From Oscillospiraceae bacterium (GTDB lineage Bacteria; Bacillota; Clostridia; Oscillospirales; Ruminococcaceae), in the NCBI GenBank assembly GCA_018110855.1, contig JAGBFZ010000384.1, forward strand, positions 1-17,693: a stretch of 17,693 nucleotides of DNA. The letters are read 5' to 3'. Made by a program: the position numbers and the translations under genes. The notes under the pieces were generated by a model. The model made no database searches. It worked only from the letters and a program-made list of their open reading frames with translations, and was not told where the DNA came from. Shown here piece after piece: positions 14,172-17,693 of the stretch; positions within the stretch are counted from its first letter, which is position 1; each line of letters starts with the position of its first letter.

Positions 14172-15278
14172 TTATTCCGACTTTAATCTTACAGGCAGCA
14201 CAAGGAAGGTGTAAGCGTCACCCTCAACAGGAACAATTTTCATAGGAGAAAGCCCGCCGTTCAGAAGGAGCTTGACCTTGTCCGACTCGGAAGCCTTGAG
14301 AGCGTCAAGGAGATATTTGCAGTTAAAGCCGATCTCAACCTTGTTTCCGCTCATGTCAATGTTGAAAACATCGGAAAGCTTTCCAAGGGAGGTGGAGCAG
14401 CTTATCTTGACCTGACCGTCTCCGAAGGAGCATTTAACGGGAGCCTTAGTCTGCTCCACGATAAGCAGTGAGCATCTTTCAAGGCTTGCGATAAGGTCCT
14501 TCGTGTTAAGAACTATCTCAGTGGTGTGATTCTGAGGAATAGATCCCTTGTAATTGTGGAACTCGCCCTCAAGAAGCCTTGAAATAACGGTGTAGCCGTT
14601 TATCTCAAAAGCAATGTGCTTTCTTGAAACGAACATATTGACATTATTTTCCCCGTCATCCTTCAGCAGCTTTGAAAGCTCTGAAAGAGCCTTTGCCTTA
14701 ACGACAAAATGATACTTGTCCTCAGTGGAGAGCTTTTCCGTCCTTACAGCCAGCCTGAAGCCATCTATTGCCACAAGATTGAATATCCCGTTCTCAATGT
14801 CAAACAGCTCACCTGTAAGTATTGGCTTAGAGTCAGAAACAGATACTGCAAAAATAGTCTGATTTATCATATTTTTAAGAAGCCCCTGTGAAACACTTAC
14901 GCAGTCGGAGGTATCGTAATCGGGCATATTGGGATAATCATCGGCAGAGAGAGCTAAGATATTATATTCAGCGTCACCGCCCCTGATAGTAGCCTTTAGC
15001 TTTTCATCTATCTCAATTACCACATTTTCCGAGGGCATTTTTCTGATGATCTCGGAAAACAGCTTTGCGTTAACGGTAAATTCGCCATGATCCTCAGACT
15101 GAACATCAATAGTAGTCCTTATTCCAAGCTCCAGATCATAGCCTGTCAGCTCAAGCTTATCCTTATCAAGATACATTTTTATTCCCTCAAGAGCAGTAAC
15201 GGGAGATTTAACGGGAACCGCCCTTGAAACATTATTAACAGCCTCATTGAGAGAAGCCTGTTTGCAAATAAACTTCAT
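14172..15278 (-). CDS. dnaN: DNA polymerase III beta subunit (sliding clamp)
   Basis: 368 residues, ATG at 15278 with AAAGG upstream (minus strand GAAAGGTCGTTAATAAAAATG-type context). The clamp is a ring of two subunits, each of three similar domains (about 1-120, 130-250, 255-368), holding the replicase on DNA. Seen: MKFICKQASLNEAVNNVSRA, VTALEGIKMYL, the mid-protein AVSVSDSKPILTGELFDIEN, DGFRLAVR and the C-terminal MKIVPVEGDAYTFLVLPVRL, which forms part of the peptide-binding groove. It is the first gene after the origin on this side; 55 bp separate it from yaaA. No strong promoter is seen in the 100 bp before it, so reading from dnaA through oriC is possible. Confidence 0.97.
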   Translation of the reverse strand: MKFICKQASLNEAVNNVSRAVPVKSPVTALEGIKMYLDKDKLELTGYDLELGIRTTIDVQSEDHGEFTVNAKLFSEIIRKMPSENVVIEIDEKLKATIRGGDAEYNILALSADDYPNMPDYDTSDCVSVSQGLLKNMINQTIFAVSVSDSKPILTGELFDIENGIFNLVAIDGFRLAVRTEKLSTEDKYHFVVKAKALSELSKLLKDDGENNVNMFVSRKHIAFEINGYTVISRLLEGEFHNYKGSIPQNHTTEIVLNTKDLIASLERCSLLIVEQTKAPVKCSFGDGQVKISCSTSLGKLSDVFNIDMSGNKVEIGFNCKYLLDALKASESDKVKLLLNGGLSPMKIVPVEGDAYTFLVLPVRLKSE

Positions 15279-15335
15279 TTTTATTAACGACCTTTCTGTT
15301 TAAAATCTCATCCTTCAAAGTATCTCTCCGAAAAA

Positions 15336-15382
15336 TTACAAAACAGTAACAATACAAAACAATTAATTACAAAATAGTAACA
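15336..15382 (+). repeat. 16-bp direct repeat with 31-bp period at the unwinding site
   Basis: TTACAAAACAGTAACA (15336-15351) and TTACAAAATAGTAACA (15367-15382) differ at one base; the starts are 31 bp apart, about three helical turns. The second copy overlaps the DnaA-trio-like stretch. Confidence 0.8.
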
Positions 15383-15401
15383 GTAATAGGGGTGTTGAAA
15401 T
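15375..15401 (-). promoter_or_regulatory. Predicted basal unwinding element: DnaA-box-like site, G/C cluster and DnaA-trios
   Basis: Read on the minus strand (dnaA to dnaN direction): ATTTCAACA (15401-15393), CCC (15392-15390), then the trinucleotides CTA TTA CTG TTA CTA (15389-15375), followed by TTTTG. This mirrors the B. subtilis element of DnaA box, G/C-rich spacer and DnaA-trios (CTA/TTA/CTT series) that directs DnaA onto single strands. Position next to dnaN is also the same. The box is the local TTTCAACA version, not TTATCCACA. Confidence 0.65.
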
Positions 15402-15632
15402 TACCCAAACCTCTCCCATTCTGCTTCCCTAAGGCATTTCAGGCTCAACACCGACCTGTTGAAAAAATACCGTATCCGTTGAAATTTTCTCAAAAAAGAA
15501 ATTTTCATTCCGGACCCGTTCAAAGCGTTGAAACTTCTTTCAAAAAAAACATACCGGCGTGGAAATTTCCGTTGAAAACCGATTCTCACTCTGAATAGGA
15601 TTCAAAATATTGTTGAAAGATACTTTTATACT

Positions 15633-15911
15633 TTTTGTAAAACCAAAATGTAACAACTTGTAACCATTTTGTAACTATGATTTTCATCATAATAAAAGTT
15701 TTGAACACACATTTCAACAAGCTGTTGAAAACTGTTGATATAACTTTCTGTAAAATCACACTATCAGTATAATTTACTTTAAATAATACATTCAGTAAAT
15801 GAAAATTAGATATCCAAAAATCATCCGACCTCAAAAAAAGGCTATAAATAGGGATTTTTGAAATTTTGTTGAAAAAGTTACAATTTGTAATCTTTTGTAA
15901 CCGTATTGTAA
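15633..15911 (+). repeat. Second origin motif: repeated TTTTGTAA(C)
   Basis: Plus-strand copies: TTTTGTAA at 15633, TGTAAC at 15649, TTGTAAC at 15658, TTTTGTAAC at 15667, TTTGTAA at 15884, TTTTGTAAC at 15893, TTGTAA at 15906. Minus-strand copies lie at 15336-15343 and 15367-15374, plus a TTTTGTAT at 15352-15359. The copies form two clusters in this part, each beside TGTTGAAA sites. A binding site or unwinding motif is inferred; the binding factor is unknown. Confidence 0.6.
15712..15730. repeat. Palindromic pair of origin boxes
   Basis: TTTCAACA-AGC-TGTTGAAA: the only minus-strand box and a plus-strand box form 8-bp perfect arms around 3 bp, with a third box (TGTTGATAT, 15733-15741) 10 bp further in tandem. 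This is the densest box cluster in the region. Confidence 0.75.
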
Positions 15912-15944
15912 TTTGCCTGTTGAAAGCCGGGAAGAGTTATTTTC

Positions 15945-15973
15945 TGAAAAAGAAAAATCCTTTTGTATAAAGG
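15945..15973 (-). terminator. Weak terminator after dnaA
   Basis: On the minus strand CCTTT-ATACA-AAAGG is followed by ATTTTTCTTTTT. The stem is only 5 bp, so termination would be partial at best; it begins 1 bp after the dnaA stop codon. Confidence 0.35.
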
Positions 15974-15974
15974 C

Positions 15975-17324
15975 TCAGCCCGCAGCTCCCTTGATATTTT
16001 TAATAATATCCTCAATGGTTTCCTTAGTCCTTGAATCGGTTGCCACAGCTTCGGCAATGCTGTCAATGTAAAAGGAAACGGTTGAATGATTCTTGCCGCC
16101 CAGCTCGGCGCCGATGTTCTGAAGCGAAAGCTGAGTCATCTCCTTGATGACGTAAGCTGCCACCTTTCTTGCCGTCGAGATCTGAGAGGATCTCTTCATG
16201 CTTCTGATATCGTCGCTTGTAACGCCGTAAATTCCCGCAACCTCACCGATTATCCTGTCCACCGTAACGGGAGCGATGGTATCATCGCTGAGTATCTCTC
16301 TTATGGCGTTCATAGCCTGAGTCATGGTGGGTGGAGTACCCATAAGGTGCTGAGAAGCCTTGAGCTTTTTAACGCAGCCCTCAAGCTGTCTGATATCAGC
16401 CTTGAGCCTTGTGGCGATCGTATCTATCACATCGTCTGTGAGTGTGAGATTCAGAAGATCCGCCTTGCGCCTTATTATGGCAACTCTTGTTTCAAAATCG
16501 GGAGGAGTGATATCCGCAATAAGACCCCATTCAAAACGGGTCCTGATGCGTTCCTCAAGAGTTTTGATGTCCTTGGGAGGCCTGTCCGAGGTGAGGATTA
16601 TCTGCTTGCCCTGACTGTGGAGCTCGTTGAAGGTGTGGAAAAATTCCTCCTGAGTGGATTCCTTTCCCGAGATAAACTGAATGTCGTCCATTAAAAGAAC
16701 ATCAGCACTGCGGTATTTTTTTCGGAAATCGTGAGTAGTCTGCTCTCTGATGGCATTGATAAGCTCATTGGTAAAAGCCTCGCCCGTAACGTAAACGATG
16801 TAGGTATCGGGCCTTGCAGCCTTGATGGCATTGGAAACAGCAGTCAGCAGATGAGTTTTGCCCAGTCCCGAGGGACCGTGTATAAATAACGGATTATAGG
16901 CGCTGCCCAGATTTTTTGAGACCGCAACGCAGGCAGCGTGAGCAAATTCGTTTGATTTTCCAACGATAAAGGTGTCGAAGGTGTAGTCATATTCAGCGTT
17001 TGAAAAGGTAAGCTCCAGCTCTTCTCTGTCCTTTATGGGCTTGGAGTCGTTCTCATCGGAAAGCTCAGCAGGGGAGATATTTATCTCCACATCGAAGCCC
17101 ATAACGTTCAGGAAGGCATCCTTCAGGATCTTTTCGTAATTTTTCAGGATAATGCCCTGCTGAAACTTTGACTGAACGGTAAAATAAGCCACGTTATCCT
17201 CAAGCTTCACAGGCTTCATGGATTTTATCCACATATCGAAGGCAACGGAGGTCAGCTCGCCGTTTACCACCTTCTGATGGATAAGGTCCAGGACCTTTTC
17301 AAAAACCTCGTCGAAAGATTTCAT
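15975..17324 (-). CDS. dnaA: Chromosomal replication initiator protein DnaA with unusual DNA-binding signature
   Basis: 449 residues from the ATG at 17324 (GGGG six bases upstream; MKSFDEVFEKVLDLI is the usual family start). In-frame ATG 17336 and TTG 17360 have no better ribosome site. DnaA-ATP binds origin boxes and opens DNA. Domain I ~1-85, short linker II ~86-108, AAA+ III ~109-325 with Walker A GPSGLGKT (150-157), Walker B VLLMDDIQF (209-217) and the Arg-finger box ERIRTRFEWGL (258-268); domain IV ~355-449. In domain IV the near-invariant GGRDHTTV reads GGKNHSTV (409-416: Asn412, His413, Ser414), and the A-x-PRQ segment reads STARK (383-387). These positions make base and backbone contacts in the E. 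coli DnaA-DNA structure, so altered box preference is plausible. Two promoters lie upstream. Confidence 0.97.
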   Translation of the reverse strand: MKSFDEVFEKVLDLIHQKVVNGELTSVAFDMWIKSMKPVKLEDNVAYFTVQSKFQQGIILKNYEKILKDAFLNVMGFDVEINISPAELSDENDSKPIKDREELELTFSNAEYDYTFDTFIVGKSNEFAHAACVAVSKNLGSAYNPLFIHGPSGLGKTHLLTAVSNAIKAARPDTYIVYVTGEAFTNELINAIREQTTHDFRKKYRSADVLLMDDIQFISGKESTQEEFFHTFNELHSQGKQIILTSDRPPKDIKTLEERIRTRFEWGLIADITPPDFETRVAIIRRKADLLNLTLTDDVIDTIATRLKADIRQLEGCVKKLKASQHLMGTPPTMTQAMNAIREILSDDTIAPVTVDRIIGEVAGIYGVTSDDIRSMKRSSQISTARKVAAYVIKEMTQLSLQNIGAELGGKNHSTVSFYIDSIAEAVATDSRTKETIEDIIKNIKGAAG

Positions 17325-17409
17325 ACAAAACCCCATTTCGGAGCGGAAGAAAAACCGCAAAAATCAAGCGTCTGCACCCTCAGAAGGCACATCGCCGCTA
17401 TACTAATAT

Positions 17410-17438
17410 ATTATACCATATTAACGAAAAAAAAGCAA
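17410..17438 (-). promoter_or_regulatory. Proximal dnaA promoter P2
   Basis: On the minus strand TTGCTT (17438-17433), 17-bp spacer, TATAAT (17415-17410), with TGG before the -10 (extended -10). Predicted start near 17403, a leader of about 79 nt. Confidence 0.8.
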
Positions 17439-17448
17439 GCACTTTTTT

Positions 17449-17515
17449 GCGGGGGACGCCCCTCGGCGAGGGCGCGTTGTTAATATGTAAAGATTTGTCA
17501 GTTTTGTCACCGCGC
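17449..17515 (-). repeat. 67-bp dispersed intergenic repeat, copy B
   Basis: Inverted relative to copy A (2876-2942), same length, 52 of 67 bases identical. It lies between the two dnaA promoters, so a transcript from the distal promoter contains it in sense orientation. The G/C-rich half forms the same hairpin as copy A, with one paired change (A-T in A at 2919/2932, C-G here at 17472/17459) that keeps pairing. Confidence 0.85.
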
Positions 17516-17599
17516 AATTGATTTATCGGCAAATTATAATATGATCTATGCAGCTGATTTTTACTGCAGCTTCTTAAAGAGGATATCTGCACTTATATA

Positions 17600-17628
17600 A
17601 TTATAGCACAAAAGTTCTAATTTGTCAA
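17600..17628 (-). promoter_or_regulatory. Distal dnaA promoter P1 (perfect sigma-A consensus)
   Basis: On the minus strand TTGACA (17628-17623), 17-bp spacer, TATAAT (17605-17600), with TGC before the -10. Both hexamers are perfect. The leader to dnaA would be about 270 nt and includes repeat copy B and P2. Confidence 0.88.
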
Positions 17629-17647
17629 TACTATTTAAGAAAAAATA

Positions 17648-17676
17648 TTTCGAAAGATCTCATAAGAGTGTATAAA
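17648..17676 (+). promoter_or_regulatory. Possible divergent promoter leading out of the window
   Basis: TTTCGA (17648-17653), 17-bp spacer, TATAAA (17671-17676) on the plus strand. In Bacillota the gene divergent from dnaA is usually rpmH; no coding start is visible before the window ends, so this is tentative. The rest of 17325-17693 holds no gene: only the two dnaA promoters, the repeat and a short inverted repeat TGCAG/CTGCA (about 17549-17568). Confidence 0.35.
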
Positions 17677-17693
17677 TATTTCAAAAAAGGATA

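Follow-up and report, generated by a model that had tools for sequence, protein, structure and literature searches.

The closest described replication origins are those of Firmicutes such as B. subtilis and C. difficile, in which the element oriC2 lies in the dnaA-dnaN gap and combines clustered DnaA boxes with a module of box, GC spacer and DnaA-trios, the trios being located towards dnaN, on the strand opposite dnaA. The basal unwinding system (BUS) of such origins is defined as a DnaA box with three or more NAN trios no further than 16 bp away (PMC8287927), and the origin of C. difficile is described as two-part (PMC7561715). The core of these boxes is TTATCCACA. Depending on lineage, other cores have been reported. 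The mollicute consensus, TT(T/A)TC(C/A)ACA (PMC3322544 Table 2, citing Cordova 2002), allows A instead of C at position 6; the cyanobacterial box is TTTTCCACA, with A3 changed to T, and one box annotated on the linear chromosome of Cyanothece is TTATCAACA, an A6 form (PMC4674748). In epsilonproteobacteria a shifted box with the core TTCAC goes along with an altered helix 5 and with changes in the contact residues of DnaA, where serine is also common at 435 and 438 (PMC5043019). According to a review, no studied origin has a nine-mer more distant than the two-mismatch box of H. pylori (PMC4285127). In this study, we found that the window, the whole stretch of 17,693 nucleotides that was analysed, contains in its dnaA-dnaN gap a dense array of boxes with the core TTTTCAACA, likewise two mismatches away from TTATCCACA. 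Like the Firmicutes oriC2, this gap has clustered boxes and, on the dnaN side and the strand opposite dnaA, a box followed by a GC spacer and trios; unlike it, the core is TTTTCAACA, and one clear box rather than a tandem stands at the trios.

The window carries dnaA and dnaN, with gyrB further along its contig, and each of the three scores above its own family cut-off; by the equivalog score of TIGR00362 the window protein is DnaA (Table 1). The contig ends 369 bp upstream of dnaA, and no Rfam RNA reached the gathering threshold in 15200-17693. At the other end of the window, positions 1-585 encode, according to the list of open reading frames, the C-terminal portion of a surface-like protein in which EETEAPAEEAVEETEAPAEEA is repeated in tandem.

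Table 1. Features of the dnaA-dnaN region, in window coordinates
Feature	Position	Strand	Basis or remark
dnaN (sliding clamp), downstream flank of the origin	14172..15278	minus	TIGR00663, 290.1 bits (cut-off 137.65)
dnaA-dnaN intergenic gap, almost certainly oriC	15279..15974	minus	696 bp, GC 0.30
Pair of 21-nt repeats at a distance of 31 bp (AATTACAAAACAGTAACAATA and its 90% copy), reaching the trios	15334..15385	plus	
DnaA-trio run TAG-TAA-CAG-TAA-TAG	15375..15389	plus	same in all four close relatives of the alignment
GC spacer GGG between trios and box	15390..15392	plus	TAG instead in one relative (L006)
Putative DnaA box adjoining the trios, ATTTCAACA	15393..15401	minus	sequence match, trio module
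Putative DnaA box TTTTCAACA	15457..15465	minus	sequence match
Putative DnaA box ATTTCAACG	15477..15485	minus	sequence match
Putative DnaA box GTTTCAACG	15526..15534	minus	sequence match
Putative DnaA box TTTTCAACG	15570..15578	minus	sequence match
Putative DnaA box CTTTCAACA	15611..15619	minus	sequence match
Three phased TGTAAC direct repeats, 10 and 11 bp apart	15649..15675	plus	OmpR-family-operator-like
Putative DnaA box ATTTCAACA	15711..15719	plus	the only one of ten reversed, facing the box at 15723; alignment
Putative DnaA box TTTTCAACA	15723..15731	minus	sequence match, alignment with relatives
Putative DnaA box TTTTCAACA	15867..15875	minus	sequence match, alignment with relatives
Three phased TGTAAY direct repeats, 10 and 11 bp apart	15886..15912	plus	OmpR-family-operator-like
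Putative DnaA box CTTTCAACA	15918..15926	minus	sequence match, alignment with relatives
dnaA	15975..17324	minus	TIGR00362, 469.9 bits (cut-off 343.9)

The motif [TC]GTTGAAA, which in the dnaA direction reads TTTCAAC[AG], occurs nine times on the plus strand of the gap, starting at the first positions of the nine minus-strand boxes of Table 1, and once on the minus strand, at 15712; six of the nine plus-strand sites are exact copies of TGTTGAAA. A sequence-only reading of this DNA had correctly placed the array at 15393-15926, with six exact copies on one strand and a single minus-strand site, and its ten plus-strand sites become nine by exact count. It was also right that this density is far above chance, as 5000 dinucleotide shuffles of the gap gave on average 0.12 plus-strand and 0.09 minus-strand sites, and never more than 3 on the two strands combined. 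The genome-wide count that it had proposed gave 182 copies of TGTTGAAA (both strands, 2,608,293 bases), the reversed control giving 29. The gap accounts for seven of the 182, against about 0.04 expected per 534 bp. Equal frequency elsewhere would have spoken against the array and was not observed: on a 193-kb and a 103-kb contig of relatives, the densest 700-bp motif bins fall on the dnaA-dnaN gap.

The gap sites fit the mollicute-type consensus and depart from the canonical TTWTNCACA, which has C at position 6. Three of them match TTTTCAACA exactly and 11 within one mismatch, three sites match TTTTCCACA within one mismatch, and altogether there are 12 A6-type sites and no C6-type site. As had been claimed, the canonical TTATCCACA is absent from the 696 bp scanned, even at one mismatch. 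Because the core letter of the boxes is changed, this origin gives no hit to the textbook box, which bears out part of the earlier statement that it would escape standard origin finders; a finder that goes by the dnaA-dnaN position should still land on it. Outside the gap, one TTATCCACA lies inside dnaA (17225-17233), and the genome has 69 copies versus 20 for the reversed control, an excess possibly owing to coding bias, with no copy in the origin. Elsewhere in the genome, an inverted pair of TTTCAACA and TGTTGAAA is found at L220:1112-1130 (G000:C83:7111-7129), upstream of mraZ (L220:634-1068), with a TGTAAY pair about 250 bp further up, at L220:1380. The gene mraZ heads the division/cell-wall cluster, and the inverted pair may mark a DnaA-regulated division operon.

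At the dnaN end of the gap, the plus strand reads TAG-TAA-CAG-TAA-TAG-GGG-TGTTGAAAT, that is, five trios, the GC spacer and a box within 15375-15401, which is the sequence form of a BUS. Scanning both strands of 210 gaps with a custom pattern, a few low-scoring rows of which may be spurious, we found the trio-spacer-box module in 86, and in all 86 it is on the strand opposite dnaA. The trio-side site of the window takes the standard place of a DnaA box, as the sequence-only reading had noticed. The fourth letter of the module box is mostly G (42 of the 86) or T (38), with A in four and C in two; in Bacilli the box is TGTGAATAT, TGTGGATAT or TGTGGATTT, and among nearer relatives TGTGGAAAN and TGTTGAAAN are frequent. 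With a strict trio-box pattern, the module was detected in six of 15 loci of the genus and missed in nine, one of which (L011) has a trio core nearby. The two 21-nt repeats that run into the trios are a probable unwinding element, judging from their sequence, and are related to the TGTAAH repeats described below.

Judged by sequence, as a cluster of ten variant boxes beside dnaA and dnaN, the array is almost certainly oriC. In two relatives, GC skew changes sign between adjacent 10-kb bins at the locus (-0.093 to +0.120 in G009 and -0.094 to +0.085 in G002), and the coding strand flips along with it. The cumulative skew minimum lies 1.2 kb from the gap on the 103-kb contig of G002 and far from the gap on G009:C40, and skew is irregular beyond 10-30 kb on both contigs. 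In an alignment with four close relatives, one of which (L006) is truncated where its contig stops, 88-93% of the box letters agree with the window. For the other letters of the dnaA-dnaN gap the identity is 60-71% when gapped columns are ignored and 53-69% when they are scored as mismatches. The box array is evidently under selection, as these identities argue. We looked for TTTCAACR and TWTCCACA upstream of dnaA in 14 genus loci (361-506 bp read) and found neither in any of them, so the origin looks one-part, unlike the bipartite origin of C. difficile. As a separate observation, 31 consecutive columns (15724-15754, GTTGAAAACTGTTGATATAACTTTCTGTAAA) are identical in the window and the four relatives; this block adjoins the only facing pair of boxes and is longer than the boxes alone explain.

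The box letters form a series across relatives. Of 20 genomes of the genus searched, 16 had a dnaA match and 15 gave a locus with a readable gap; one member (G006), 99% complete, has no DnaA match, probably owing to an assembly gap. The wider sample, consisting of the best-scoring search matches rather than a random draw, comprised 217 loci plus the window. Removal of the window's own copy (L001) and a weak non-DnaA hit (L111) left 216 sequences, and leaving out four duplicates (L034, L129, L160, and L197) and two gaps under 120 bp (L005 and L150) gave 210, among which nine had no dnaN in reach and are represented by up to 700 bp after dnaA. Unbiased 8-mer counts were compared with dinucleotide shuffles in 191 of these (5 + 10 + 124 + 52), the groups outside the genus being drawn by DnaA identity, not by taxonomy, and 19 loci with DnaA 44-50% identical belonging to no group. 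In the 52 distant loci, most of them from Bacilli and clostridia and all with a DnaA under 44% identical, TATCCACA was found 72 times versus 0.6 expected; in the 124 loci with DnaA at least 50% identical, mostly of the same family, TTTCCACA was found 192 times versus 6.8 and TTTCAACA 270 times versus 10.8; and in the 15 genus loci, TTTCAACA was found 28 times versus 0.7 (five loci) and 59 times versus 1.2 (ten loci). The core is accordingly TTATCCACA in distant loci, a mix of TTTTCCACA and TTTTCAACA in nearer relatives, and nearly only TTTTCAACA in the genus, whose 15 gaps contain 152 A6-type and 19 C6-type sites in total (5-19 and 0-4 per gap). The array is therefore conserved in relatives, as the sequence-only reading required. 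Over 198 loci, 71 origins are C-type, 49 A-type, and 78 mixed, and the change between A-dominant and not occurs 29 times on the DnaA tree. One C6-type relative, L035, has eight C6 sites and one A6 site.

The base-contacting positions of DnaA are 399, 423, 432-435, 438, and 439 (PMC5043019), with L438 given as a contact position in PMC8235120. At 399/423/432/433/434/435/438/439 the window DnaA has, by alignment, R Q K N H S S F, and E. coli DnaA has R P R D H T L H, so that six of the eight positions differ. When loci were divided into four bands of gap GC, the excess-A6 fraction was 0.36, 0.19, 0.14, and 0.05 for T435 DnaAs, 0.75, 0.71, 0.47, and 0.30 for DnaAs with S/A435 and D433, and, in the first three bands, 0.63 (two loci), 1.01 (seven), and 0.85 (three) for N433 DnaAs, four H433 loci without T435 being excluded; in the lowest band, N433 with its two loci is below S/A435-D433. 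In a tree-corrected regression over 198 of the 210 loci (dnaN present, at least two sites, minimum branch lengths set), gap GC was a strong predictor of the A6:C6 ratio (coefficient -7.9, standard error 1.1). With tree and gap GC corrected for, N433 (p 0.025) and S/T438 (p 0.034) were nominal signals only among 36 tests of contact positions; N433 had the lowest p, and H433, K423, K399, and M438 were also under 0.05. T435 was not significantly associated with A6:C6 in the tree-corrected analysis of the 198 loci (p 0.14).

A single-residue determinant in domain IV was sought in 487 tests, none of which survives correction; the best (p 0.00065) concerns window residue 396 (V in 27 loci), outside the listed contact positions. 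N433 is not required for A6 boxes, because seven loci with A6-only origins keep D433. We also rejected a switch from Asp433-cytosine to Asn433-adenine at box position 6, against which stand these seven origins and the assignment of D433 and L438 to box position 7, not 6, in PMC8235120. The changed box can thus be stated with confidence, and a changed DnaA specificity is claimed only as likely because GC is dominant, the residue signals are nominal, and N433 is dispensable.

A second element, better conserved than the boxes and missed by the sequence-only reading, is present in the same gap. It consists of phased repeats of the form TGTAAH-N4/5-TGTAAH pointing from dnaN to dnaA, and the best-conserved letters of the four-relative alignment are TTGTAA/TTACAA (97-98%). 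TGTAAH pairs are found in 14 of the 15 genus gaps (absent from L020) and in nine of 195 other gaps; over all 210, 39 pairs are in one orientation and five in the other, with 1.1 expected. Genome-wide, the strict TGTAAY pair was counted 14 times, as opposed to two for the reversed control, and four of the 14 are in the origin gap. Of the ten elsewhere, two are inside reading frames and eight are upstream of a same-orientation ORF. The neighbouring ORFs were assigned by a mechanical rule. On inspection by eye, the products of four of the eight genes are of lipoprotein or secreted type; the eight include one with a weak IseA-like domain (23.4 bits, below the cut-off of 29.9), one with a transglutaminase-like domain, and rsmD.

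Direct-repeat operators with a period of about 11 bp are shared by origin-binding response regulators (MtrA, CtrA, Spo0A, HP1021; also WalR), and by motif form the window repeats are of the WalR/MtrA type, a TGT/GTnAC direct repeat. The S. aureus WalR motif is given as TGTHH-N6-WGTNDD, and WalR regulates dnaA there (PMC10746227); the MtrA operator consists of GTnAC direct repeats (PMC6265350), and MtrA is reported on four such boxes between the DnaA boxes of the M. tuberculosis oriC (PMC4285127). The TGTAAC repeats likewise lie between DnaA boxes, the likeness being one of motif. A WalR orthologue was considered as the binder, but no protein of the genome passes the family cut-off: there are 37 matches to the YycF model, the best at 232.8 bits versus a cut-off of 340. 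The conserved TGTAAC arrays point to a putative second origin-binding regulator.

Taken together, we consider it highly probable that the array is oriC, that its TTTTCAACA-like sites are DnaA boxes from which a filament opens the origin, and that their core has drifted. DnaA domain IV would bind about ten boxes, nine in one orientation, presumably in preference to TTATCCACA. By analogy with B. subtilis-type origins, a DnaA-ATP filament would then extend from the last box (15393-15401) across GGG onto the five single-strand trios (15375-15389) and open the AT-rich stretch adjoining dnaN. Positions 3 and 6 are where the core has drifted away from TTATCCACA towards TTTTCAACA. A DnaA helix-turn-helix without the P423/T435/H439 set of Bacilli probably made this drift possible, these residues being the supposed cause, and AT-rich composition probably favoured it.

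The strongest competitor keeps the DnaA boxes but leaves specificity unshifted: position 6 would be tolerant, and AT mutation pressure would have turned C6 into A6. We give this appreciable weight, if short of even, since gap GC dominates the A6:C6 ratio, many origins mix both letters (the 78 above), and the letter switches often on the DnaA tree. At a gap GC of 0.28-0.34, however, the excess of A differs with the residues, being 0.19 in 12 T435 loci, 0.71 in 30 S/A435-D433 loci, and 1.01 in seven N433 loci, values uncorrected for relatedness, and the window gap, at GC 0.30, is free of C6 altogether. That another protein binds the TTTTCAACA array and DnaA uses other sites in the genome could draw on the 69 copies of TTATCCACA and on the TGTAAC repeat that shares the gap, but is very improbable: the site fills the box place of the trio module, relatives grade from TTTTCCACA to TTTTCAACA in the same gap, no C6-type site lies in the window gap, and TTTCAACR and TWTCCACA are both absent from the stretch read upstream of dnaA in the 14 genus loci. 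An array arising by chance or as a compositional artefact of the AT-rich spacer has a negligible probability; low GC would favour it, but the shuffles never exceeded three sites against ten seen and the boxes are conserved in relatives, two results that already refute it.

Beyond the reading of the array as a drifted oriC, it is tempting to speculate that this is a two-input origin, in which a re-tuned DnaA (A6 instead of C6; N433/S435/S438/F439 in its recognition helix) would load on the box array while an OmpR-family envelope response regulator on the TGTAAC arrays would gate initiation, much as MtrA and CtrA do, with an independent origin of this control in the gut clostridial lineage concerned. 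We regard this as unlikely; if true, the origin would combine a box array invisible to canonical searches with two helically phased TGTAAC arrays woven between the boxes.

The change of C6 to A is not new, as it is already in the published mollicute consensus. The mollicute consensus, however, is a degenerate one over several species, whereas the genus studied here is not a mollicute one and has the A form almost exclusively, in a dense oriented array. The cyanobacterial consensus keeps C6, and in the boxes cited from PMC4674748 A3-to-T and A6 are not combined; epsilonproteobacteria, in the account of PMC5043019, shift position 5 and keep C6, whereas the window shifts position 6 and has Asn433. 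The proposal of an oriC with a shifted box is thus supported, but its uniqueness was overstated in view of the TTTTCCACA-TTTTCAACA mixtures, the mollicute consensus, and the Cyanothece TTATCAACA. Literature searches, with most subscription journals outside their scope, returned no paper on the DnaA box in Ruminococcus or Ruminococc*, and for TTTTCAACA with DnaA only a phytoplasma review and papers unrelated by title.

In summary, to predict origins of these bacteria from their boxes, the consensus must allow C or A at position 6. The relatives provide a natural series of origins from TTTTCCACA to TTTTCAACA together with varied DnaA recognition helices, which makes a co-change of initiator and site specificity directly testable.
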